DNA of 64,000 nt from Rhodobacterales bacterium (GTDB lineage: Bacteria > Pseudomonadota > Alphaproteobacteria > Rhodobacterales > Rhodobacteraceae): positions 1-64,000 of the forward strand of contig PDRW01000036.1 of assembly GCA_002746935.1 (NCBI GenBank), read 5' to 3'. A program made the translations under genes and the position numbers. This document shows positions 11,786-56,529 of the stretch, one piece after another (within the stretch, counting starts at the first letter, position 1; each line of letters starts with the position of its first letter). Under the pieces are notes generated by a model. That model was not told the origin of the DNA, ran no database searches, and worked only from the letters and a program-made list of their open reading frames with translations.

Positions 11786-12229
11786 GAAATCGCCTCCCCT
11801 CAAGACCGCCCGCGGGGCGCGGGCTACCACAAACGGCGCAAGGCGCCGGAACCCCGGGGGCTATTGGCAGCCGGGGCAGAGCGGCGCAACAGTTTTGGCC
11901 CTCCTGCGCCGGACCGGCGGGAAAAACACCGTTACCGCAGGATATTGTTTCCAAAAATGCTTCAATACCCCTCGTGTTGGCAGATTGTTTCTGTTTTGTT
12001 GAGGTCGAGCCCGTGCAGCCCCCCGTGCAGACCCATATGTCGCGGGCCGGAAAAAGTGGCAAATGGCCTTGACGCCCCGTCCCCGTCGGCGGAAGCTCAG
12101 CCCGCACAGGGGGCCGGAGCCACGGTCGGGGAGGGCCGGGGCAGGGCGCAGAGCGGCGAGGGTTTCGTTTGCTGCTGCGACCGGTTCCGGGCGCGCATCT
12201 GCAACGCGCAAAACAGGGAGGACTTCCAG
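11786..12229. promoter_or_regulatory. Divergent intergenic region between the SGNH gene and ugpB
   Basis: About 440 bases between divergent genes. An AT-rich patch at 11935-12005 is the likely promoter area; it contains a weak dyad TATTG/CAATA with a 15-base spacer at about 11942-11966. I find no recognisable Pho box (CTGTCAT repeats), which would be expected if the downstream importer were phosphate-controlled. No small gene is supported. Confidence 0.4.
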
Positions 12230-13543
12230 ATGGGCCATTTCAAAGCAACTCTTGCCGCTGCCGTGTCGCTCGCGGGGCTTGCTGCCCCGGGTTTCGCCGG
12301 GACCGAGATCGAGTTCTGGCACGCTTTCACCGGGCGGCTTGGCGAGCTGGTCGACGCGCAGGTTGCGGAGTTCAACGCCAGCCAGCCGGATTACACCGTG
12401 GTGGCCAGCTACAAGGGCAATTATTCCGAGACCCTGAACGCCGGTATTGCCGCGTTCCGCGCTGGTGAACAGCCCGACATTCTGATGGTGTTCGAGGTCG
12501 GCACCGCCACGATGATGGCAGCCTCCGGGGCGATCAAACCGGTCTACGAGGTGATGGCCGAGGCCGGCGCCGACTGGAACCCCGACGATTACATCGGCGC
12601 GGTAAAGGGCTATTACACCACCAACGATGGCAAGATGCTGTCGCTGCCGTTCAATTCCTCGACCCCGGTGCTCTGGGTCAACCGCGATGCGCTTGATGCC
12701 GCCGGGATCGCGCCGGATGCGCCGCTGACCACCTGGCAGGAGGTCGGTGCCGTGCTCGACGACCTCAAGGCCGCGGGCCACGAATGCCCGATGACCACCG
12801 CCTGGCAAAGCTGGGTCCATCTCGAGAACCTCTCCGCCTATCACGATGTGCCGCTTGCCACGAAAGGCAACGGTTTCGAAGGGCTCGACACCGAGCTTGC
12901 GCTGAACGGCCCGGTGCAGGTGCAGCACATTGCGCAGATGGGCGAATGGGCGAAGGACGGCAAGTTCATCTACACCGGGCGCCGCAACGAGGGTGGCGCC
13001 AATTTCCGCGCCGGTGAATGTGCCTTCTTCACCGAAAGCTCCGCCGGCTACGCGGGCATCAGGACGGAGGCCGAGTTCGCCTTCGAGGTGCATCCGCTGC
13101 CCTATTGGGATGGCGTGGAAGGTGCCCCGCAGAACACCATCATCGGCGGGGCCTCGCTCTGGGTCATGGCCGGGCAGACGGAGGAGGAATACAAGGGCGT
13201 CGCCGCCTTCCTCAACTTCCTGTCCTCGCCCGAGATCCAGGCCAGATGGCACCAGGACACCGGCTATCTGCCGATCACCGTTCCCGCCGCCGGGCTGACC
13301 CGCGAACAGGGCTTCTACGCGGCCAACCCGGGCACCGACATCGCCGTCATCCAGATGACCGCAAGGGCGCCCACGGCCAATTCCAAGGGCCTGCGTCTCG
13401 GCTCCTTCGACCAGATCCGCGCGATCATCGACGAAGAGCTGGAAGCGGTCTGGGCCGGTGACAAGTCGGCTCAGGACGCGCTCGACAGCGCCGTCGCGCG
13501 CGGCAACGCGCTGCTGCGCCGTTTCGAGCAGGCCAACCGGTAA
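12230..13543 (+). CDS. ugpB: ABC transporter substrate-binding protein, UgpB type
   Basis: Periplasmic binding protein for sn-glycerol-3-phosphate or a related ligand. It has 437 residues with an N-terminal signal peptide (residues 1-23) and the family stretches EIEFWHAFTGRLGELVD and LPFNSSTPVLWVNRDAL. Near the end it has the conserved AFLNFLSSPEIQARWHQDTGYLPIT. AGGGAGGA precedes the ATG. It heads a four-gene importer operon followed by sugar-metabolism genes. The similarity to UgpB is strong, but a PfkB kinase and a transaldolase downstream leave open that the ligand is a sugar or polyol. Confidence 0.9.
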   Translation: MGHFKATLAAAVSLAGLAAPGFAGTEIEFWHAFTGRLGELVDAQVAEFNASQPDYTVVASYKGNYSETLNAGIAAFRAGEQPDILMVFEVGTATMMAASGAIKPVYEVMAEAGADWNPDDYIGAVKGYYTTNDGKMLSLPFNSSTPVLWVNRDALDAAGIAPDAPLTTWQEVGAVLDDLKAAGHECPMTTAWQSWVHLENLSAYHDVPLATKGNGFEGLDTELALNGPVQVQHIAQMGEWAKDGKFIYTGRRNEGGANFRAGECAFFTESSAGYAGIRTEAEFAFEVHPLPYWDGVEGAPQNTIIGGASLWVMAGQTEEEYKGVAAFLNFLSSPEIQARWHQDTGYLPITVPAAGLTREQGFYAANPGTDIAVIQMTARAPTANSKGLRLGSFDQIRAIIDEELEAVWAGDKSAQDALDSAVARGNALLRRFEQANR

Positions 13544-13550
13544 CGCCACC

Positions 13551-13578
13551 GCGCCTCGCCTCCCGGCGGGGCGCGCTT
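13551..13578 (+). terminator. Intercistronic hairpin between ugpB and ugpA
   Basis: GCGCCTCGCC (13551-13560) pairs with GGCGGGGCGC (13565-13574) across a 4-base loop, with one mismatch, followed by a short GCTTTG. Hairpins at this position in importer operons usually stabilise the binding-protein message or reduce read-through, giving more binding protein than permease. The T tract is poor, so partial read-through is likely. Confidence 0.55.
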
Positions 13579-42465: not shown

Positions 42466-43467
42466 ATGAAAGTTCTGGTGATCGACGACGATCCGGCAAT
42501 TCTCGAGCTCGTCTCGCAATACCTGAGTCTGTCCGCGCAGCACGATGTCCGTTCCGTGTCTTCCGCGCGCGACGCGCTTGCGGCGATAGAGGCCGACAGC
42601 GGGCAGGGCGCGGTGCCCTTCGAATGCTTCCTGGTCGACATCCAGATGCCCGGGGTCGACGGCATCACTCTGGTCGAGTTCATCCGCGAACGTCCCGAAC
42701 ACCGCCACACCCCGATCATCATGCTCACGGCGATGGAAGACAAGGATCACGTCGACCGCGCCTTTGCGGCGGGGGCGACCGATTATGTAACCAAGCCGTT
42801 TGACTTCTACGACCTTCAGTTCCGCATCCACGCCGCCGAAAACGCCGCCCATGCCAAGGACCGTGCCGAAGCTGCCGCGTCGGATGCACCGAGGACCATG
42901 CTGAGCGATCCGATCTCGTTGCCCGATATTGATCGCGCCATCGACTTCAGCGAATTCGAAAACTACGTTCGCCAGCTCGTCAGCCGGCGGCTCTACCGGG
43001 TGTCGGTCATCGCGGTGAAGGTCGGCGGGGTCGAGCAGATCCATGCGAAGTTCAGCGATCAGGCTTTCCATCGCGTGATTCATGACGTTGCGGAAGAAAT
43101 CTGCGATACCCTGCTGAATGTCGGCGGGATCCTCTCCTATCGGGGTGACGGGCTGTTTCTGTGCATTCCCGACCGCCGTTTGCAAGGGCGGCGCAACGCG
43201 ATCCAGAAGGCGCTGAACAAACGGCACCGGGTGGTGCACCCGACGCTTGGGCGGTTTCCGTCCACCCTCTATGTGGGCGAGCAGATCCCGCTTGGCAGCG
43301 GTTCCGATGCCAGCGTGCTTGCGGCGTTGTCGCTGGCCGTCGAGAGTGCCGAGAACCAGATCCTGGGTACGGGCGAGCGCCGCGAGGGCAAACGGCCCAT
43401 CCTGCAACCCGTCCGCCGCGGCGGCAGCACCGCCGCCTGGAGCGGCACGGGCGAGCCCGCGGCCTGA
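42466..43467 (+). CDS. Response regulator with a degenerate GGDEF-like output domain
   Basis: 333 residues. Residues 1-125 are a receiver: acidic DDD (7-9), phosphoacceptor Asp58 in FLVDIQMPGVDG, LTAM and Lys110. Residues about 150-270 resemble a diguanylate cyclase fold but the signature reads YRGDGLF (225-231) instead of GGDEF, and other catalytic residues are missing, so c-di-GMP synthesis is not expected. The last 60 residues are low complexity. It has a paralogue at 44910. Role unknown; probably a protein-protein or ligand-sensing output of a phosphorelay. Confidence 0.85.
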   Translation: MKVLVIDDDPAILELVSQYLSLSAQHDVRSVSSARDALAAIEADSGQGAVPFECFLVDIQMPGVDGITLVEFIRERPEHRHTPIIMLTAMEDKDHVDRAFAAGATDYVTKPFDFYDLQFRIHAAENAAHAKDRAEAAASDAPRTMLSDPISLPDIDRAIDFSEFENYVRQLVSRRLYRVSVIAVKVGGVEQIHAKFSDQAFHRVIHDVAEEICDTLLNVGGILSYRGDGLFLCIPDRRLQGRRNAIQKALNKRHRVVHPTLGRFPSTLYVGEQIPLGSGSDASVLAALSLAVESAENQILGTGERREGKRPILQPVRRGGSTAAWSGTGEPAA

Positions 43468-43932
43468 GAACCCGGTGTGGCGGCGCTCCTGAAAGCTGCC
43501 CGGCAGGGGCAGGAGAATCAGGTGCCTCATGGAGCGGCAGGGGCGGCGGGTGCGCCCGCGCGGCGCCCGATTCGGGGGCGTTTCCGGCGCGGCCAGGGTC
43601 TCCCGCGCTCAATCTGAACGGGAAATCGACCAGTCCCTGAGGTTGTGCCGCAGCTTTCGTTCTCCAGATGCGGCGTTTGTGATTCATCGAGCTTTTTCAG
43701 TCTCCTGATGCCCGGCGGCCCCGGCGGAGAAGCGCCCCCTTTGGCTTGGCCGGAGCTGTGCATGGCGACCGCCTGTCTCCTGATTTCCCCATGAAAACAA
43801 GGGCTTTCGCCCTGGTCGTTTGCAAAGCGGCAAATATGGCCGCATTTTGGCGGGATTGCGGTTTTCCTGTTGAACAATTTTTTCCGCTTCCGGTAAATGC
43901 CCCAGCACCGCAACGAAGACGGGGGACGAGCA
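43468..43932. promoter_or_regulatory. Upstream region of the LuxI-like gene
   Basis: About 465 bases without a supported gene. GC falls markedly from 43790 to 43900. A candidate sigma-70-type promoter is TTGAAC at 43870-43875, a 17-base spacer and GTAAAT at 43893-43898, about 28 bases before the start. I find no lux-box-like palindrome of the CTG-N10-CAG type. A small hairpin AGGGC-TTTC-GCCCT occurs near 43800. Confidence 0.35.
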
Positions 43933-44664
43933 ATGCCGGGGGCGATCGAAACAAATGACAGCAAGGCCTGGGTATTTCCGAAGCTGGAATCCGGGGCCGC
44001 GGGGCCGTTGGCTTCGGCCCGGTTCCCGGGCCTGACGCCCACCCCGCCCGATTCTGTGCCGGAGATCGACCGGCATATTCACGCGACCACAATCACCTTC
44101 CGCACCATGAGCCAGCATGGCGATCTGCTGGTGAGCTACCTGGAAGCGCGCAAGCAGATCTTCATCGACACCCTCAAATGGAACATTCCCTCCGTCGACG
44201 GGATGGAATTCGACCAGTACGATACCCCCTATGCCCATTGGGTGGTGATCCATGAGTTCGGACGCATCCTCGGCGGCGTCCGGCTGATGCCGACAAAGGC
44301 GCGTTGCGGGATCTATTCCTACATGCTGCGCGATGCTCAGCTTGGCCTGCTGCATCCGATCCCGAGAGATGTTCTGTTCCTTGACGCACCGGTCGACGAA
44401 AGGGTCTGGGAGGCGTCGCGGCTGTTCATCACCGGCGAGGTGCCGGCGCTGCGGCGGGCGCAGGTTCAGGGATTGCTGATGCAGCAGATGGCGATGACCG
44501 CGGGGCGGGAAGGCGCAACCCATGTGATCGGCATCGTGCCGGCGGTGTTTGCACGCTGGCTGAGGCGGCTCGACCTCGAGGCAGTGCCGGTCGGGCGCCG
44601 GTTCGAAATCGACGGCACCCGCAGCCAGGCGGCGCTTTTCAAGGTGGCGCAAACCCTGCACTGA
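43933..44664 (+). CDS. LuxI-family acyl-homoserine-lactone synthase-like protein
   Basis: 243 residues with the LuxI/GNAT fold and its invariant residues: Arg73, Phe77 and Trp83 in ARKQIFIDTLKW, Asp94 and Asp97 in FDQYD, Arg117 in GGVRLMPT, Glu160 and Arg163 in WEASR. It differs from typical LuxI by about 50 extra N-terminal residues and by lacking a LuxR neighbour. The product would be an acyl- or aryl-homoserine lactone made from SAM; the acyl donor cannot be read from the sequence. The ATG at 43933 follows GGGGGA; an ATG at 43897 lacks this. It is flanked by two paralogous receiver proteins. Confidence 0.85.
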   Translation: MPGAIETNDSKAWVFPKLESGAAGPLASARFPGLTPTPPDSVPEIDRHIHATTITFRTMSQHGDLLVSYLEARKQIFIDTLKWNIPSVDGMEFDQYDTPYAHWVVIHEFGRILGGVRLMPTKARCGIYSYMLRDAQLGLLHPIPRDVLFLDAPVDERVWEASRLFITGEVPALRRAQVQGLLMQQMAMTAGREGATHVIGIVPAVFARWLRRLDLEAVPVGRRFEIDGTRSQAALFKVAQTLH

Positions 44665-44693
44665 CCCTGGCCTGCCACCCGGAACAGGAGCAG

Positions 44694-44723
44694 AACCGGC
44701 GCTTCGGCGCCGGTTTTTCGTTT
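44694..44723 (+). terminator. Rho-independent terminator after the LuxI-like gene
   Basis: Stem AACCGGCGC/GCGCCGGTT closed by a TTCG tetraloop (44694-44715) followed by TTTCGTTT. The stable UUCG loop and T-rich tail make this a strong terminator. Confidence 0.9.
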
Positions 44724-44909
44724 CGGGTGCGGAGGCTTTAGCGATTTTTCAAGATATTGGGGCGCAGCATGAAGTTGTCGCGTCCTTGCCTCCGAATCGG
44801 CAATTTCCCCGGCAACACTCCGGGCGGGACCGAATGCATACTTTCCGAGCGGGGAAGGAACAACTGGTGGGGGCGTATGCCCGGTGCCCAATAGAACGGA
44901 TGGTTGGCC

Positions 44910-46229
44910 ATGAAAATTCTCGCGGTCGACGATGACAGCATTGTCCTCGGTCTTCTTGTCGAAATCCTCGAAAGCGCCGAATATGGCGAGGTGCAAACCT
45001 GTACCTCCGCCGAACGCGCGCTTGAGGTGATCGGTGAAGCCCATGTGCCGTTCGAGTGCTTCATGCTCGACATTCAGATGCGCGGGATGGATGGGATCAC
45101 GCTTTGCGCCAGGATCCGGGAAATCCCGCAATACGCCCGCACGCCGATTCTGATGCTGACCGCGATGTCGGAGAAATCCTTCATCGACCGTGCATTTGCC
45201 GCCGGAGCCTCCGACTATCTGTCAAAGCCCATCGACCCGACGGAGATTGTCGTTCGCCTCGGCCTCGCCGAACAGCTGATGCGCGAGCGCAGGTCGCTGG
45301 CCAGAACGGCGGGCGTTGTCGACAGCCTGATCGACGTGCTCGACCGGTCGACCCGCTATGATCTCGAGGATGCCATTGATCTGGGCAGGATGGACCGCTT
45401 GCTGCGCTATCCGGCCTTTGAAAACTACCTCTACCAGACCGGTCGCGGCGTGCTGTTTCTCTCGACCGTCTTTGCGGCCAGGATCCGCAATGTCCGTGAG
45501 TTGTATCGCAAGCTGCCGCCGCTCGAGTTCAAGAACCTTCTGGCCACCGCCGCGGCCTCGCTGATCGGCAAGCTCGACAAACACGAGGCGTTCATCACCT
45601 ATCGTGGTGAAGGCGAATTCGTGGGGGTGATTCCGCGCAAGGGCCAGCATGTATTGAAACAGCTGGGGTGTGAGCTTGTTTTCGAGATCGAGCCGGGCGA
45701 AGGAAAACACGCAGCTTCGCTGCCGGCAGAGGCGAAACTGGTGATCGGCCCGGCCGTTCCGGTCCGGCTGCCCACCCGCGGCGAATTGTCGAAGGCGATC
45801 TGGCATGCGGTCGAAAGGGTCCGCCTGGCGGCCGATCCGTTGATGCGCCACGAGACGAAAACCGGCGACGGGCACCAGTGGCCGCGTCCGTTCAGCAAGA
45901 TATGCAGTGTCCGGGAAGCGCGCGAGGAGAGCCTGCGCAATGAGTTCAGGGAAATGCTGCGCGACCAGCTCAACACCGAGATCGGCGACAATCTGCGCGG
46001 CTCCGGTGCAGGGGCAAAGCGCAAGCCGGGGGCCTTCATGAAGCGCGATTCCAACGCGCTCAAGCACAGGATGAAGGGGTCGACCAGGCTTTTCCCAAAC
46101 GCTCCCCGGACGACAAGGAAACCCGCCCCCGGTACGGTTGCAGCGGTGCAGGGTAACGATGGCGACAGTGCCAGTCTTCTGGGGCTGGCCCGGCCCGGCC
46201 AGGTGTCCGTGAGTTGTTCCAATGCATGA
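44910..46229 (+). CDS. Response regulator with a degenerate GGDEF-like domain and long basic tail
   Basis: 439 residues. The receiver (1-120) has DDD (7-9), Asp54 in FMLDIQMRGMDG (Arg where Pro is usual), LTAM and a Lys in LSKP. A helical linker leads to a domain at about 160-245 that is homologous to that of the protein at 42466, sharing a FENY motif and the degenerate signature YRGEGEF (231-237). The last 150 residues are basic and Arg/Lys-rich. A TTG two codons upstream is less likely than the ATG at 44910. It overlaps the Hpt gene by 8 bases. Confidence 0.85.
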   Translation: MKILAVDDDSIVLGLLVEILESAEYGEVQTCTSAERALEVIGEAHVPFECFMLDIQMRGMDGITLCARIREIPQYARTPILMLTAMSEKSFIDRAFAAGASDYLSKPIDPTEIVVRLGLAEQLMRERRSLARTAGVVDSLIDVLDRSTRYDLEDAIDLGRMDRLLRYPAFENYLYQTGRGVLFLSTVFAARIRNVRELYRKLPPLEFKNLLATAAASLIGKLDKHEAFITYRGEGEFVGVIPRKGQHVLKQLGCELVFEIEPGEGKHAASLPAEAKLVIGPAVPVRLPTRGELSKAIWHAVERVRLAADPLMRHETKTGDGHQWPRPFSKICSVREAREESLRNEFREMLRDQLNTEIGDNLRGSGAGAKRKPGAFMKRDSNALKHRMKGSTRLFPNAPRTTRKPAPGTVAAVQGNDGDSASLLGLARPGQVSVSCSNA

Positions 46230-46758
46230 CAGCGACCGCAACGACAGCGCCACCGCGCGGCTCGCTGGTTCGGCGGTCGGGCGCAGAAGCTGCTCCGGAA
46301 GTGTCGGGGGCGCGGCGGCATCCGGCAAGGAACGGTATCGGGCAGGGCTGCGGGGCGACGATGCGCCCGCGCCGGCGACGACCGGCCTGCCCCCCGCCGG
46401 CGGTATGCCCCCCGCCAGCCCCACCGGTGTGTTCGCGGCCGTCGAGGCGGCGGTCCGCAAAAGCCGGATCGAGTTCGCCGGGCGGCTTCAGCAATACCGT
46501 GAAAAGCTCGATCGCATCAGGCTCCGGGGTGCGGCGGTGCTGCCGGATGCCGCAATGGACGAAGCCCAGTTCATTGCCCACCGGATCGCCGGGGTCGGCA
46601 AGACGCTTGGCTACGCTGCCCTCGGCGATGCCGCGCGCGTTACTGAAACCGCCATTCTCACCTGGAAACAGGAACAATCGGACGAGACGCGGCAGGCGGC
46701 GTTCCGCACGATCTGCACCCTTGCCGGTCTGATCGGGGCCATCTGCGACGACGGGTGA
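46222..46758 (+). CDS. Hpt domain protein
   Basis: 178 residues. The first 65 residues are disordered (Gly/Ala/Pro-rich). The C-terminal 100 residues form a helical bundle with AHRIAGVGKTLGYAALGDAA, matching the histidine phosphotransfer motif with His120 as the phosphorylated residue. Such a protein would relay phosphate between the nearby kinase and the receiver proteins. The start overlaps the end of the preceding receiver gene, supporting a shared function. Confidence 0.8.
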   Translation: MHDSDRNDSATARLAGSAVGRRSCSGSVGGAAASGKERYRAGLRGDDAPAPATTGLPPAGGMPPASPTGVFAAVEAAVRKSRIEFAGRLQQYREKLDRIRLRGAAVLPDAAMDEAQFIAHRIAGVGKTLGYAALGDAARVTETAILTWKQEQSDETRQAAFRTICTLAGLIGAICDDG

Positions 46759-47125
46759 AATCGCCCGGTCTGACCTGGCCTGTCCCGAGCCGCCCGGTTG
46801 TGAACCGCCCCGTTTCGTGACGGGCAGGGCGGCCCGGTTGCGAACCACTCCGCAATCAACCGCCCCGCCCGGTGACGGGGAGGCCGGCCCAGTCAGAGCT
46901 GACGGGAGTGGATTTGGTCCCGGAATCCACGAAGCATCAGCGAGAATTCAAAGACATATAGCGTGACGGCACGGTCGGAATTGCGCTGTCATGCTATACC
47001 GGTCGGCGGATCCGACCTTTGTTCCGTTGGGTGGCAGATCGGCTGGCCTGCCCGCTCCGTTCCATCCTGTCCCCTGCTGTCAAGCCCTGCCCTGTCCAGA
47101 GCCGCCCCATCCGGTCTTGCCGGTC
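46759..47125. repeat. Convergent intergenic region with imperfect repeats
   Basis: About 370 bases between convergent genes. At 46791-46824 and again at 46831-46880 there are imperfect copies of a GCCCGGTTG-GAACC...CCGCCCCG...GTGACGGG unit, giving several overlapping hairpins. The part from 47040 to 47110 is pyrimidine-rich with repeated CTGTCC/CTGCC words. No gene or clean terminator is seen. Confidence 0.5.
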
Positions 47126-47515
47126 TCAAGCGGTCTGAAAACTCTTCCAGATCTCCGCGATCTGCGCGCTGAGCCCGGCGATTTCGAAGGGTTTCATGAT
47201 TACCGCGAGGGCACCGAGCTCGAGCAGCCGTCCGGTCAGGTCCGCCTCGGTTTTTGCCGTCATGAACACCACCGGCACCCCGGCCAGCGCCGGCACCTTC
47301 TTCAGACGGGTCCAGAGCTCTTCGCCGCTCATGCCGGGCATCATGTAGTCGAGCAACAAGAGCTGAGCGTCGATCGAGCCGGTCTGGGCAAGCGCTTCCT
47401 CGCCGGTGGCAAATTGCCGGACCTTGTATTCCCCCACCAGTTCAAGCGCCATTCTGGTCAGCGTCCGGATGTCCTCGTCGTCATCAACGTGAAGAATACG
47501 TTCAAGCTTGTCCAT
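47126..47515 (-). CDS. Single-domain response regulator
   Basis: A 129-residue stand-alone receiver: acidic DDDED (11-15), phosphoacceptor Asp in LLLLDYMMPGMSG, FMTAK and Lys in MKPFE. There is no output domain, as in CheY- or DivK-type shuttles. The ATG at 47515 follows GAGGAG; the longer frame has no ribosome binding site. It lies 200 bases downstream of the histidine kinase on the same strand and is a likely partner of it. Confidence 0.9.
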   Translation of the reverse strand: MDKLERILHVDDDEDIRTLTRMALELVGEYKVRQFATGEEALAQTGSIDAQLLLLDYMMPGMSGEELWTRLKKVPALAGVPVVFMTAKTEADLTGRLLELGALAVIMKPFEIAGLSAQIAEIWKSFQTA

Positions 47516-47714
47516 TTCGAACTCCTCGCGATGCGGCCAACGCCCGTCCGGCCGCCGTATCCCAATCAGTATCCCTGGCTGCGGACCGGGGCGGCGTGCG
47601 AGCGCCACGGTTTGCAGAGGTGAGACGCAGGGATGCAAGAACGCCGGAACCCGGGCGGTTCTTTCCCCGGCAAATCTGTCTTTCCGTTCTCATGCGGCTC
47701 CAAAATCCGGCTTC

Positions 47715-49154
47715 TCAGGCAGAAACGGCCATCGGTTCGCTTTCGGGCCCGACCTCTGTTCCGTGTGGGAGCATGTTGAGTTCGACATAGAAGGTCGATC
47801 CATGGCCAAGCTCGCTCTCGTAATCCACCCTGCCTTCGTGGTGCTCGACGATCTGCTTGGTGATGTTCATGCCCAGGCCGGTCCCGCCGACCTTGCGAAT
47901 GTCCGAACTGTCGACCTGGCTGAACTTTCCGAACACCCGCTCGTGCGAGCCCTTGGGAATGCCGATACCTTCGTCCTGCACGCAGATCCGCACTTTCTGG
48001 CCGCGGGGCTCGACGCGCACCTGCACGGTGCCGCCTTCATGGCTGAATTTCAGCGCATTGGAGAGCAGGTTGTTCATCACCTGCATCAGCCGCTGCTGGT
48101 CGCCGCGAATCCGCACTTCGTCCTTCGGCAGGACCATGGTGATGTGGATGCCGAGCTGGTCGCCGTAGCTGCGGGTGCCCTCGATGGCGTCTTTCACCAG
48201 CTGGCCGACCTCGACCGTTTCGAAACGGAAGGTCATTTCACCCGCTTCAATCTTTTGCAGGTCGAGCAGATCGTCGATCAGATCGGCCAGCCGCTGGCTG
48301 TTTTTCGCAGCGATGGTCAGCGCCGGCCGGAGGCTGTCGGGCACTTCGCCGAGCATGCCGGTTTGAACCAGATCGAGCGATGCCTTGATCGAGGTCAGCG
48401 GTGTGCGCAGCTCGTGGCTGACGGTGGACAGGAACTGCGATTTGACCTGATAGGCAGCCTTGGTGCGCTCGTTCTCTTCCCGGATGGTCCTGAGCTGTCG
48501 CAATCGCACCTGGTAATTGCCGTAGAACACCAGCGAGATATCGACGATGAAATAGAGCACGAAGACGATGGTGAAGAATTCGAGCCAGCTGTTCGAAGAC
48601 AGCGGCGGACGGTATCTCACGATGTCGAAAAGGCCGATGTAGATGAAACTGACGCCATAGATCGACAGCCGCAACATCAGGATGCCGATCATCTGGTTGT
48701 TGTTCATTGCCGCGAAGAGGCTTGCCGCGAACAGCAGGAAAAGCGGGGTGAAATGCCCGCCGACCGGCTGCTGCTGGGCGATGTTGACGATAAACAGGCT
48801 GATGGTTCCGGCGCTCACCAGCGTGTTGAAGATGATCCGCATCAGGATGATCCGGCCGGCCGTTTCATCGCCCACCCGCCAGCGGCGCACTGCCGGGATC
48901 AGCAGCATGTCGAGCACTTCCGAAAACAGTACACCGCTATAGCAGGCGAAGGTGCGGACCGGATCGAAATAGAAGGCGGAGAGCAGGGTGGCGGCGAGGA
49001 AGATCGCCTGCCGCTGCCAGATCAGCCGCATGGTGGTGTGGATGTAATCCTTGATCCGTTGCTCACGGCCGGTTGTCTTGAGCCACTGGGGCCACGGATC
49101 GGGTTGAAACGTCATCTGGCCATGCCTCGTTGCCTTTGTCGTCTGTTCAGGCAT
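47715..49154 (-). CDS. Membrane histidine kinase
   Basis: 479 residues. The N-terminal half (about residues 45-212) is an integral membrane sensor of six or seven helices with short loops. A coiled linker (215-240) leads to HisKA with His247 in STVSHELRTPL, then the ATPase domain with the N box in NNLLSNALKFS, DEGIGIP and GGTGLGMNI. No attached receiver is present, in line with a separate Hpt and receivers nearby. An internal ATG at 49115 also has a ribosome binding site. The signal is unknown; a hydrophobic signal such as a lipid-like lactone is a possibility, not shown. Confidence 0.9.
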   Translation of the reverse strand: MPEQTTKATRHGQMTFQPDPWPQWLKTTGREQRIKDYIHTTMRLIWQRQAIFLAATLLSAFYFDPVRTFACYSGVLFSEVLDMLLIPAVRRWRVGDETAGRIILMRIIFNTLVSAGTISLFIVNIAQQQPVGGHFTPLFLLFAASLFAAMNNNQMIGILMLRLSIYGVSFIYIGLFDIVRYRPPLSSNSWLEFFTIVFVLYFIVDISLVFYGNYQVRLRQLRTIREENERTKAAYQVKSQFLSTVSHELRTPLTSIKASLDLVQTGMLGEVPDSLRPALTIAAKNSQRLADLIDDLLDLQKIEAGEMTFRFETVEVGQLVKDAIEGTRSYGDQLGIHITMVLPKDEVRIRGDQQRLMQVMNNLLSNALKFSHEGGTVQVRVEPRGQKVRICVQDEGIGIPKGSHERVFGKFSQVDSSDIRKVGGTGLGMNITKQIVEHHEGRVDYESELGHGSTFYVELNMLPHGTEVGPESEPMAVSA

Positions 49155-52046: not shown

Positions 52047-53654
52047 TCAGCCGTCCTTGCCGAGCATGACCGCCTTCACGTCGTCATCGACATAGGGCAC
52101 ATATTGCTCGAAATTGTCGGCGAACATCTTCACCAGCTTCCGGGCCTGGACGTCATAGGCGTCGTGGTCTTCCCAGGTGCGGCGCGGGTTGAGCAGCACG
52201 GTGGGCACGTCGTGGACTTCGAGCGGCACTTCGAAACCGAAATTCTCGTCGATGCGGAATTTCGCGTCATGCAGAGAGCCGTCGAGGGCGCCGGCGAGCA
52301 GGCGGCGGGTTTCCTTGATCGGCATCCGGTTGCCTTCGCCGTAGGGGCCGCCGGTCCAGCCGGTGTTGACCAGCCAGCAGGTGGCGCCGTGCCTGGCGAT
52401 CTTTTCGCGCAGCAGGTTGCCGTAGACTTCCGGGCGGCGCGGCATGAAGGGGGCGCCGAAGCAGGTGGAGAAGGTGGGTTCGGGGTGGTCGACGCCCTTT
52501 TCGGTGCCGGCGACCTTGGAGGTGAAGCCCGACAGGAAGTGGTACATTGCCTGCGCCGGGGTCAGCCGCGCGATCGGCGGCAGCACGCCGAAAGCGTCGG
52601 ACGTGAGCATGATGATGTTCTTCGGATGCCCGCCGAGCGAGGTTTCGGAGGCGTTGGGGATGTAGTGCAGCGGGTAGGCGCAGCGCATGTTGGGGGTGAG
52701 GCTGTCGTCCTCGAAGTCGAGCGCCATCGTTTCCCTGTCCCACACCATGTTCTCGATCACGGTCGCGAACATCGAGGTGGTGTTGTAGATTTCCGGCTCG
52801 GCGATGGGTGACAGCGAAATCGTCTTGGCGTAGCAGCCGCCTTCGAAATTGAAGGTGCCCTTGTCCGACCAGCCGTGTTCGTCATCGCCGATCAGGGTGC
52901 GCGAGGGGTCGGCGGAGAGGGTGGTCTTGCCGGTGCCGGAGAGGCCGAAGAAGATGGCCGTATCGACCGGGTTGTTCGGTGCATGGTTGGCGGAGCAGTG
53001 CATCGCCATTATTCCGCGCCCGGGCAGGATGTAGTTGAGCAGGGTGAACACGCCCTTCTTGTTCTCGCCCGCATATTCGGTGCCGCCCACAAGGATCAGC
53101 TTTTTCGAGAAGTTGAGCGCGATCACGGTTTCGGAGCGGCAGCCGTGGCGCTCGGGGTCGGCCTTGAAGGAGGGCAGGTTGATGACGGTGTATTCGGGCA
53201 CGAAATCGTCGAGCTCGTCACGCGAGGGACGGCGCATCATGTGGCGGATGAACAGGTTGTGCCAGGCCAGTTCCTGCACGAAGCGCACATCGAGCCGCTG
53301 CTCGGGGTCGGCGCCGCCGAACAGATCCTGAACATAGAATTTCCGGCCCTTCATGTGCGCGAGCATGTCGGCGTGGAGCACATCGAACTTCGCCGGATCC
53401 ATCGGCTTGTTGTTTTCCCACCAGACGCTGTCTTCCACCTCCGGGGTGCGCACGACGAACTTGTCCAGCGGCGAACGGCCGGTGTGGACGCCGGTCTCGA
53501 CCAGGATCGCACCGCCCCTGCCGAGGTGGCCTTCGCCGTTTTTCACCGAATGCTCCACGAGCTGGGGTTCGATCAGGTTGTAGAAGACCTCGCCGAGGCC
53601 CCTGAAGCCCTGATCTTCCAGCCGTTGCGCGGGGTTCACATGTCCTGTGCTCAT
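52047..53654 (-). CDS. pckA: Phosphoenolpyruvate carboxykinase (ATP)
   Basis: First step of gluconeogenesis: oxaloacetate plus ATP to PEP, CO2 and ADP. The 535-residue protein shows [15 protein letters not shown], the kinase-1 P-loop GLSGTGKTT (237-245), the metal-binding LIGDDEHGW (254-262) and the substrate region NPRRTW near the end. AAGGAG precedes the ATG at 53654. It is divergent from chvI; in Agrobacterium and related bacteria pckA lies beside chvI-chvG and is controlled by that system. Confidence 0.97.
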
Positions 53655-54062
53655 CTGGTGCTCCTTCGTGCCGGCTGGCACGTTTCCTGTTCCGGTGCCG
53701 GCTGGCACCGCTTCCGTTGTGCCGCGCGCCCTGCATCCTGGTTCTCAGGAGCGGGGCGACCGGGCCCGACTGCGGCGTCCCGGGCGGATGCCGCACATGC
53801 AATGCCGCGGTGCTGCATCATCTGGCTATAACACGGGTTGGCTACAAGAAAAGTGTTCTTGCAAGGCGTTAGCGCTACAGTCATCCTGTTTGCGCAACCA
53901 CTGTTCCGCGTTCCGATCCAAGTGCCGTATTTTCGCCATCAGTGATGCGTATTTGACTCACACGGCGCGCCGAATCGCCCTCCGTTGTTGATTCTCCCGT
54001 TCGGGTCCGATTAATCCGCGGAAAACAGGCACTAAAGAGTGAGCAGAAGAGGATTTCTCAGC
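53655..54062. promoter_or_regulatory. Divergent promoter region pckA/chvI with a LacI-type palindrome
   Basis: About 400 bases. A palindrome with core TAGCGCTA (53870-53877), extended to GTTAGCGCTAC, resembles operators of LacI-family regulators; a PckR-like repressor of pckA is known in Sinorhizobium, so this may be its site. AT-rich stretches at 53820-53860 and 53930-54020 are the likely pckA and chvI promoters. Confidence 0.5.
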
Positions 54063-54764
54063 ATGTCGAGAATTGCCTTGGTGGACGACGACAGGAACAT
54101 TCTGACGTCGGTCTCCATGACCCTGGAGGCCGAAGGCTTCGAGGTGGAAACCTACAACGACGGTCAATCGGCGCTTGATGCGTTCAACAAGCGCCTGCCC
54201 GACATGGCCGTGTTTGACATCAAGATGCCGCGGATGGACGGCATGGACCTGCTCCAGCGGGTGCGCCAGAAAACCACCATGCCGGTGATTTTCCTGACCT
54301 CGAAAGACGACGAGATCGACGAGGTTCTGGGCCTGCGCATGGGGGCCGACGATTATGTGAAAAAGCCCTTCAGCCAGCGTCTGCTGGTCGAACGCATCCG
54401 CGCGCTTCTGCGCCGCCAGGAGGCGATCGAGGGGGTGGCGATCCCGGAAAGCGAAGAAAACAAGGTGATGCAGCGCGGTCATCTGACCATGGATCCGCTG
54501 CGCCACGCGGTCACCTGGAAGGGGCGCGACGTGTCGCTGACCGTGACCGAGTTTCTGCTGCTCCAGGCGCTCGCCCAGCGGCCCGGTTTCGTGAAGAGCC
54601 GCGATCAACTCATGGATGTGGCCTATGACGATCAGGTCTATGTCGATGATCGCACCATCGACAGCCACATCAAGCGGCTGCGCAAGAAGATGCGCATGGT
54701 CGACGATGAGTTCTCGGCGATCGAAACGCTCTATGGTATTGGCTACCGCTACAACGAAGAGTAG
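54063..54764 (+). CDS. chvI: Response regulator ChvI
   Basis: OmpR-type transcription factor of the conserved acid/envelope sensing system ChvG-ChvI. 233 residues: receiver with DDD (8-10), Asp52 in [11 protein letters not shown] and KKPFSQRLL, and a C-terminal winged helix ([40 protein letters not shown]). The ATG at 54063 follows GAGGA. The kinase gene starts 43 bases downstream. Confidence 0.95.
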
Positions 54765-54807
54765 TATCCCGACGCTTGTGGGGGACGAGAGGTTCGGAGG
54801 CGCATCG

Positions 54808-56529
54808 GTGCGCGATACCAAGGCAACGCGCAACGACACGGAAGTCGTGTTGGGCGAGGACTGGGTAACGACCCCGTCCTCGGTCGACGATGAATTGCGC
54901 GAAGGCCGCGAGCGCCGCAGCCTTGTTGCCGTCAACCGTTCGCCGCTCGCCCGCAAGATCATCATCTTCAATCTTCTGGGCCTCGCCGTTCTGGTCGGCG
55001 GGGTTCTTTTTCTGAACCCTTTCCGCGAAGGCCTGCTGCATCAGCGTGAACAGAGCCTGGCAATGGCGGTGGGAATCGTTGCCGACATGATCGAGGCACA
55101 GCAGCCGGAACCGAGCCTGCCCCGCAGGCCGGTTGCCGCCGCGCTCACCCGCGAGAGCGTTGCGGCATCGCTGGCGGGGGTCTCTGCGCGCGACGGCAGC
55201 GAGGTTCTGGTTTTCGCACCCGACGGCACGCTGCTGGGGCGGACCGGCAGCCGCGCGGGCACGGTCGCCCGTCCGGTGGCCGATCTGGAGAGCGAACAGG
55301 GCAACACGCTCATTACCGACGGCCTTTCCGGGATATGGGATCTGCTTGCGGGCATGATCTCGGCCACCGGCCGGCTCGGCGAGCAGAGATTCGACCCCGA
55401 AGATGAGGCCCGCGCGCTTCTGGACGGGGTTTTCCGCGGCAATACCGAGATCGCCCGCGTCCGCGCCGGTTACGGTGAAAACGCCTATGTGGTGGCAAGC
55501 CCGGTGATCGTCGGGGGCGGGATTGTCGGCGCGGTGGTCCTGTCGAGCCCGGACGGGCTGATTGACACGCTGGTGCGTACCGAACGCGAGCAGATCCTTC
55601 AGGTGTTCATCATCGCAATTCTGGTCTCGATCGGCCTCAGCCTGGTGCTCGCCTCCACCATTGCCAACCCGCTCGCCGATCTTGCCGCCGCCGCCGAAAT
55701 CGGACGCGACAAGAACTCCCGCCGGGTGAATCCGGGCCGGGTGCGAATCCCGGACCTGACCGCGCGGCCCGACGAGATCGGCCGCCTGTCGAAGGCGCTG
55801 CGCGGCATGGTCGCGGCACTTTATGACCGGATCGACGCCAACGAACAATTCGCCGCCGACGTTGCACATGAGATCAAGAACCCGCTGGCGAGCCTGCGCT
55901 CGGCGATCGGCTCGCTCCGGTTCGTGAAAAAGGAAGACCAACGCGGCAAGCTGCTCGACGTGATCGAACATGACGTGCGCCGCCTCGACCGGCTGGTGAG
56001 CGATATTTCCAACGCCTCGCGGCTCGATTCCGAACTGGTGAAGGAAGAGGAAGAACCCTTCGATCTGATCAAGATGCTGCGCAACCTCACCGAATATCTC
56101 GGCGGCGAGGCGCATCAGAAGGGCGTCGATTTCATCACCGACCTTACCGCCGACTCGATCATCATTACCGGCCTCGAAGCGCGGCTGGCGCAGGTCTTCG
56201 TCAACCTCATCACCAACGCGATCAGCTTTTGCGAAGAGGGCGATGCCATTCGCGTCTGGGCGCGGCAGCGCGAAAGACGGGTGCTGATCGTGGTCGAAGA
56301 CACCGGCCCCGGCATTCCCGAGGAAGCGCTGGTGAAGATCTTCAACCGCTTCTACAGCCAGCGGCCCGAGAACCAGTTCGGCAACAATTCCGGCCTTGGG
56401 CTGGCGATTTCGAAGCAGATCGTCGAGGCCCATGGCGGGGTGATCTGGGCCGAAAACATCCGTCCCACCGATGCCGACGTCGGTTCCGAGCCGCTTGGCG
56501 CGCGGTTCGTGGTCGGCCTGCCGGTGTGA
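54808..56529 (+). CDS. chvG: Sensor histidine kinase ChvG
   Basis: Membrane kinase partner of ChvI, 573 residues: helix 1 at about 50-71, a periplasmic sensor (72-262), helix 2 at 263-285, HAMP, then HisKA with His354 in FAADVAHEIKNPL and the ATPase domain (NLITNAISF, DTGPGIP, NNSGLGLAISKQI). The GTG at 54808 has GGAGG 7 bases upstream. The stop overlaps the hprK start (GTGTGA). In relatives the periplasmic inhibitor ExoR acts on this kinase; it is not in the window. Confidence 0.95.
   Translation: MRDTKATRNDTEVVLGEDWVTTPSSVDDELREGRERRSLVAVNRSPLARKIIIFNLLGLAVLVGGVLFLNPFREGLLHQREQSLAMAVGIVADMIEAQQPEPSLPRRPVAAALTRESVAASLAGVSARDGSEVLVFAPDGTLLGRTGSRAGTVARPVADLESEQGNTLITDGLSGIWDLLAGMISATGRLGEQRFDPEDEARALLDGVFRGNTEIARVRAGYGENAYVVASPVIVGGGIVGAVVLSSPDGLIDTLVRTEREQILQVFIIAILVSIGLSLVLASTIANPLADLAAAAEIGRDKNSRRVNPGRVRIPDLTARPDEIGRLSKALRGMVAALYDRIDANEQFAADVAHEIKNPLASLRSAIGSLRFVKKEDQRGKLLDVIEHDVRRLDRLVSDISNASRLDSELVKEEEEPFDLIKMLRNLTEYLGGEAHQKGVDFITDLTADSIIITGLEARLAQVFVNLITNAISFCEEGDAIRVWARQRERRVLIVVEDTGPGIPEEALVKIFNRFYSQRPENQFGNNSGLGLAISKQIVEAHGGVIWAENIRPTDADVGSEPLGARFVVGLPV

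Follow-up and report, generated by a model that had tools for sequence, protein, structure and literature searches.

A LuxI-family synthase within a conserved histidine kinase and phosphorelay island of Rhodobacteraceae: a candidate lactone module with no neighbouring LuxR

The window analysed here - a stretch of 64,000 nucleotides of contig PDRW01000036.1 from a Rhodobacterales bacterium (assembly GCA_002746935.1) - carries at 42466-49154 six open reading frames (ORFs) coding for a LuxI-family synthase of acyl-homoserine lactones (AHLs), two response regulators (RRa and RRb) with degenerate GGDEF folds, a histidine phosphotransfer (Hpt) protein, a single-domain receiver (RRc) and a membrane histidine kinase. 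An initial annotation of this DNA had given the same six genes at the same positions, in agreement with the ORFs and with Pfam, and had suggested that lactone signalling is here tied to a phosphorelay instead of a LuxR activator. We likewise read the island, tentatively and with a confidence just short of even, as a lactone module in which a membrane histidine kinase takes the place of the LuxR receptor, and for which we infer the ligand, the order of phosphotransfer and the output. The reading is built on what was observed of gene content, conservation, exclusion between LuxR and the kinase, genome-wide co-occurrence and the loss of cyclase residues.

LuxR and the kinase as alternative neighbours of luxI

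Our survey took one genome per genus code from the family, 295 in all, and compared the positions of matches to LuxI, to the membrane domain of the kinase and to a LuxR query taken from the window's own genome. Among the 126 closest LuxI places (E values up to about 5e-45; weaker matches were excluded), 27, including that of the window, have the kinase within 8 kb and 98 have LuxR within 8 kb, while none has both and a single place has neither. For LuxR, rows down to E 7.8e-52 were used; for the kinase, 41 of 53 rows, one second fragment and 11 weak matches (E 8.6e-9 to 2.8e-4) being excluded. Adjacency to LuxR and adjacency to the kinase are mutually exclusive around this LuxI family. The window LuxI resembles the LuxI/LuxR pairs of Rhodobacteraceae in sequence, sharing 39-52% identity with the LuxIs at the 98 places linked to LuxR, but these pairs have a LuxR within 8 kb and no kinase, and none of the 26 examined has the N-terminal motif described below.

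A phylogeny of LuxI sequences (82 rows; unrooted, after thinning of the kinase-linked rows at 78% identity and without outgroups or unlabelled rows) can be explained by two changes of partner label, where shuffles require 22 on average. A tree that holds the 26 LuxR-linked LuxIs together had a better likelihood than the free search and is not rejected (p-AU 0.679), so that one partner switch is enough, though not proven. A FastTree rooted on three weak LuxI relatives was set aside because those three did not group together.

The synthase itself (43897-44664, plus strand) scores 49.3 bits against a cut-off of 24 for Autoind_synth (PF00765), and solved AHL synthases match it by sequence (best E 8.5e-10). 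The window sequence has the residues of the AHL-synthase core (Arg, Phe, Trp, Asp, Asp, Arg, Glu, Arg), and so have 78-79 of 81 aligned rows, the others showing mostly gaps. NCBIfam matches were all far under their cut-offs and include an exosortase-associated acyltransferase family (E 1.8e-7). Translation may start at ATG 43897 or at an in-frame ATG 12 codons further in. The initial annotation was right to call the protein an extended LuxI-like synthase, given its PF00765 score and an N-terminal extension with an FPxL motif. A motif of this kind ([FL]PxLxP) occurs in 66 of 90 kinase-linked LuxIs and in 0 of 26 LuxR-linked ones, and the frame is open to a start at least 30 codons upstream in 88 of the 90, as compared with 4 of the 26. 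The extension is conserved in kinase-linked LuxIs and mostly lacking in LuxR-linked LuxIs. No second PF00765 gene was found in the genome that holds the window (2.8 Mb, 84% complete).

Conservation of the island among relatives

Conservation was followed in 80 named loci, which are the best 80 of at least 577 relatives in a LuxI profile scan; the kinase and other genes were counted in the fetched flanks, many of which were ended by contig ends. By their record titles, these loci belong to Rhodobacteraceae, to Rhodobacterales or to genera of roseobacters and their kin, one title giving only Proteobacteria. In 73 of them the fetched flank includes a member of the kinase family, and five of the seven genomes whose locus lacks a nearby kinase carry one elsewhere. 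Two of the seven, L129 and L131, have LuxR directly upstream of luxI; the L129 genome is one of the five with a kinase elsewhere, and the L131 genome has none. A LuxR profile, which detects the own-genome LuxR at E 1.4e-31 and from which one of eight LuxR stretches (L148) was left out, finds a clear LuxR in three loci: these two and L075, where it belongs to a second luxI some 8 kb away. The last is the sole clear LuxR among the 73 kinase-linked loci, L090 having a marginal match at the locus edge (E 0.0004 and 0.095 in two profile versions).

Proteins with a receiver (REC) and a GGDEF-like domain are found in 55 of the 80 loci, with at least two copies in 30. In an unsupervised, all-against-all count of gene families over the same loci the most frequent are LuxI (74; it is present in all 80 by construction, six having been missed by gene picking), the kinase (73) and receiver proteins (64), followed by a cytochrome P450 (15). 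One locus, L053, has the complete set in the window's order, and two more, L054 and L073, have every gene except RRa; luxI lies 0.5 kb from the start of locus L054, while 3.7 kb upstream of it are seen in L073 and hold no RRa.

Co-occurrence extends to whole genomes. Each of the 39 genomes with a strong kinase match has a REC-GGDEF-like domain, as compared to 32 of 256 others (Fisher p 2e-29, which shared descent makes too optimistic; 11 genomes with weak kinase matches were counted as without), and it lies within 8 kb of 28 of 41 kinase places. Strong Hpt matches, meaning rows stronger than E 3e-9, are within 1.5 kb of a REC-GGDEF-like domain in 50 of 56 cases, and genomes with a strong Hpt make up 27 of the 39 kinase genomes and 24 of the 256 others. 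The family ranking, the LuxR/kinase exclusion and the 39 of 39 co-occurrence rule out a chance assembly of genes; co-occurrence in other genomes had been proposed as a check on the initial annotation, and the kinase in 73 of 80 loci and the complete set of L053 provide it.

The cytochrome P450 gene sits between or beside luxI and the kinase in its 15 loci (L092, at 12189-13568, L071, L074, L075, L077, L083, L089, L095, L097, L098, L099, L101, L102, L103 and L111), where it might act as a modifier of the lactone. The window island has no such ORF.

Components of the phosphorelay

RRa (42466-43467, plus strand) and RRb (44904-46229, plus strand, with a long C-terminal tail) flank the synthase and are paralogues, 30% identical. 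Pfam finds nothing in either beyond Response_reg, and in their family its GGDEF model matches 4 of 48 members, weakly (best E 0.00099). The structure model of RRa (mean pLDDT 89.3) nevertheless aligns with the full-length diguanylate cyclases WspR, DgcR and PleD, with E values of 7.5e-18 to 3.9e-14 and a TM-score of 0.36-0.38 across the two domains; the likeness to these proteins takes in both the REC and the GGDEF fold along the full length. What sets the family apart from them is the active site: neither GGDEF or GGEEF nor, beside the active-site place, the RxxD inhibitory site (I-site) is found in any of the 48 members. That place instead holds a conserved GxG, followed two residues later by F or Y in nearly all of the 48, mostly as GxGxF; RRa has GDGLF and RRb GEGEF. 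To judge from these motifs, RRa and RRb are GGDEF folds for which neither synthesis of cyclic di-GMP (c-di-GMP) nor the usual inhibition by it is to be expected. The identity of the pair, the fold match and the motif loss together confirm what the initial annotation had described as two paralogous receivers with degenerate GGDEF-like domains on either side of the synthase. Active cyclases, as another possible role of these domains, are ruled out by the absence of both motifs from all 48.

The Hpt protein (46222-46758, plus strand), whose ORF start shares 8 bases with the end of RRb, scores 26.3 bits against a Pfam cut-off of 24.6, and the histidine of its motif is invariant in 16 of 16 relatives. 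RRc (47126-47515, minus strand) probably starts at ATG 47515 (130 residues) rather than at TTG 47638, to which the longest ORF extends. The Response_reg matches of the three receiver proteins are at E 2.7e-26, 5.4e-26 and 4.3e-22. An Hpt protein and a single-domain receiver had both been predicted, and Pfam's Hpt and Response_reg models find them.

The kinase (47715-49154) lies with RRc on the minus strand, convergent with the luxI side, the RRc gene coming after that of the kinase. Pfam identifies HisKA and HATPase_c and no Response_reg of its own; the catalytic His, Asn and Asp are kept in 73 of 73 aligned rows (the L073 row was left out of the kinase alignments). Its membrane domain, modelled over 48459-49061 (pLDDT 88.5), consists of six helices, as the earlier description of a multi-helix kinase led one to expect. 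For this sensor domain, Pfam and NCBIfam gave scattered matches only, at E about 0.001 or worse, and, with the PDB sequence and Foldseek searches included, homology to LuxN, to CqsS or to a solved fold was not established. Phosphorelay domains and phospho-sites are present in the window set.

G193, G007, G013, G099, G203, G270, G004, G067, G082, G073 and G261 also match the six-helix domain, but weakly and for the most part within open frames of 700-800 residues; these are perhaps a distant kinase family sharing the sensor fold.

A proposed signalling route and its alternatives

On the reading we favour, LuxI would make an AHL, and the six-helix membrane domain of the kinase would sense it and so set the balance between kinase and phosphatase activity. 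Phosphate would pass from the kinase to RRc, on to Hpt and finally to RRa and RRb, which is the simplest order for a kinase that has no receiver of its own and is codirectional with RRc. As their GGDEF folds are not expected to make c-di-GMP any more, RRa and RRb probably act through binding of proteins or nucleotides, and not through transcription or cyclase activity. Beyond the window, a joint account can be drawn up: one branch of the Rhodobacteraceae would have swapped LuxR, plausibly once, for a six-helix kinase whose sensor domain has no convincing Pfam or NCBIfam model; its synthase has a conserved extension; its relay would end in enzyme-dead GGDEF regulators, not in a DNA-binding protein; and in some members a P450 may tailor the lactone. 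With all its parts taken together we regard this account as possible, if somewhat doubtful.

Several observations weigh against reception by the kinase. No LuxI of this family lies within 8 kb of the kinase in 14 of the 41 places with a strong kinase match, and at least two of the genomes with such orphan kinases, G128 and G272, gave no LuxI match. Linked and orphan kinases are intermixed in the kinase tree (61 of 86 kinase rows; seven label changes), where, after thinning, the window kinase groups in a set of seven rows with two other linked and four orphan sequences. Some 3 kb, occupied by other genes, separate the window kinase from luxI. Among the 80 named loci, an Hpt is near only 12 and a receiver domain without a GGDEF-like part near 27, where receivers belonging to other proteins are counted too, so that a complete relay is not found at every locus. 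PDB sequence and Foldseek searches with the six-helix domain gave nothing significant. Finally, a gene with a LuxR ligand domain is present somewhere in all 27 kinase-LuxI genomes, as it is in 269 of the 295 genomes overall. The kinase family may therefore listen on its own account or sense something else. A strict one-to-one pairing of kinase and LuxI is not supported, given the 14 orphan kinases and the mixed tree.

Two orphan kinases have neighbours of a kind that also counts on this side: that of L139 (5934-8177) lies directly beside a LuxR-type solo, and that of L138 (4419-5051) has one within a few kb, with no luxI near in either case.

The alternative that fares best is that the kinase senses another cue, such as the envelope, a surface or a host compound, and that the relay controls the expression or activity of luxI, the lactone being read elsewhere; the link would then be to production of the signal and not to its reception. 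The 14 orphan kinase places favour it, several of them having REC-GGDEF-like or Hpt neighbours, as do the 32 genomes with a REC-GGDEF-like domain and no strong kinase match. We nonetheless consider it unlikely, as it leaves unexplained why LuxR is absent beside luxI exactly where the kinase is present (both in 0 of 126 places).

Also unlikely, and slightly more so, is that the synthase works with a distant LuxR, the phosphorelay being separate or a parallel branch. No LuxR lies next to luxI in the window island, just as first annotated, and the 84% complete genome has one LuxR-type gene elsewhere: a solo of 206 residues on another contig (C24:37175-37783; locus L052), beside an apparent rplQ. 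In many genomes, the LuxRs immediately upstream of related luxI genes are homologues of this solo, and the identity of the window LuxI to LuxR-linked LuxIs points the same way, as does the presence of some LuxR-type gene in 27 of 27 kinase-LuxI genomes. LuxR genes are, however, so common in the family that presence elsewhere says little. Homologues of the solo at E 1e-51 or better occur in three of the 27 (G000, G202 and G241, that of G202 belonging to another luxI) and at E 1e-37 or better in seven, adding G126, G129, G142 and G165. As so few kinase-LuxI genomes have one, the solo is not a general partner; in the 73 kinase-linked named loci, the LuxR of L075 goes with its second luxI and the match of L090 is marginal. 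The solo may still act in this strain, and the LuxR-type gene in all 27 genomes, together with the weaker solo homologues in four more of them, shifts some weight from reception by the kinase to this alternative. Solo homologues in G241 and G229 are 78% identical and are also away from those genomes' listed LuxI places.

That the LuxI-like protein no longer makes AHLs (being dead or making another acyl conjugate) and sits in an ordinary phosphorelay is very improbable: the sub-threshold NCBIfam matches, the exosortase-associated family among them, would fit, but PF00765 is above its cut-off, core residues are kept in nearly all relatives, and the accessible text of a 2022 study gives preliminary AHL masses for Roseovarius nubinhibens ISM (PMC9769649).

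Relation to described systems

A lactone read by a kinase has its closest working analogue, as far as the analogy carries, in the LuxM/LuxN relay of vibrios. LuxN carries a fused receiver, and LuxO has AAA and DNA-binding domains. The window shares with that relay a membrane histidine kinase and a separate Hpt protein. It differs in having a synthase of LuxI and not LuxM type and a kinase with six modelled helices and no fused receiver; in place of LuxO it has RRa and RRb, in which Pfam sees only Response_reg and of which RRa models as a GGDEF fold. In the portions of the vibrio account available to us, the AHL is read by a membrane histidine kinase, LuxN, with nine predicted transmembrane helices, which signals via the separate phosphotransfer protein LuxU to LuxO (PMC5007282).

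Closer in phylogeny are the orphan luxI genes of roseobacters. In the available text of Cude and Buchan (2013; PMC3824088), orphan luxI genes of subgroup I-delta are arranged in topologies H, I and J, all of which include a histidine kinase; a two-component, LuxN-like phosphorelay was proposed for orphan luxI, whose products were called 'an area ripe for study' and to which non-LuxR proteins might respond. The initial annotation's remark that it knew no described system with exactly this set is not supported: a kinase-linked orphan luxI was in print in 2013 (PMC3824088). Two strains listed for topologies I and J are among our named loci, R. nubinhibens ISM (L117) and Ruegeria TW15 (L093), and carry the same kinase family; that these are the genes listed is probable from the strain, not from locus tags. 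The window agrees with the I-delta topologies in a luxI without adjacent LuxR and a kinase in the cluster, though not as immediate neighbour, its subgroup being placed by strain. In the published arrangement, as far as that text describes it, the kinase is upstream of luxI, whereas the window kinase is downstream and convergent, with the REC-GGDEF-like, Hpt and receiver genes between (PMC3824088). LuxR exclusion, the constant REC-GGDEF-like partner, the pairing of REC-GGDEF with Hpt and the synthase extension are not mentioned in the available text of PMC3824088 and are additions to it.

For R. nubinhibens ISM and Sulfitobacter sp. EE-36, the luxI and luxR genes listed in the accessible text of the 2022 study are all orphans, and both strains gave preliminary AHL masses (PMC9769649). 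The sole luxI listed for R. nubinhibens ISM is an orphan of the window type, and masses from this strain count in favour of a lactone module (PMC9769649). Among the papers listed in searches of the PMC library, which omits most subscription papers, we found none that tests this kinase family.

Other features of the island and its flanks

A GC-rich hairpin followed by a T run at 44695-44718 (plus strand), 3' of luxI, was read from the sequence as a possible terminator and may separate transcription of luxI from that of RRb-Hpt; it is absent from the terminator-scan list. A sigma-70 promoter scan reported no promoter. Further along the window, a response regulator and sensor kinase at 54039-56529 adjoin a pckA-like gene at 52047-53708 (read from ORFs), which is the usual ChvI/ChvG neighbourhood of alphaproteobacteria.

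Other genes recur in the flanks of the named loci: three GTPase/dynamin-like families in 12, 12 and 7 loci, one of them matching weakly, and genes for a PP2C phosphatase, a protein kinase and FHA in 11, 9 and 7. Such GTPase, PP2C and FHA neighbours are seen in L055, L056, L059, L064, L068, L072, L075, L078, L083, L085, L089, L096 and L106.

Implications

LuxI/LuxR is the textbook AHL circuit, and the best-known case of an AHL received by a kinase is that of vibrios, whose synthase is unrelated. The proposal that lactone signalling is here tied to a phosphorelay in place of LuxR is partly supported: it has gained from the co-occurrence data, the LuxR/kinase exclusion and the REC-GGDEF-like domain in all strong-kinase genomes and has lost its claim to novelty, so that its direction was right and its content less new than claimed, with partner exclusion and the conserved relay extending the 2013 description. 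If the kinase is the receptor, a second, LuxI-based route to kinase reception would exist, in 27 of the 295 surveyed genomes of the family. Orphan luxI genes would then gain a testable footing, and one could ask what role enzyme-dead GGDEF regulators play as relay outputs. For the idea of non-LuxR responders, as put in the available text of Cude and Buchan, the exclusion between LuxR and the kinase provides quantitative support.

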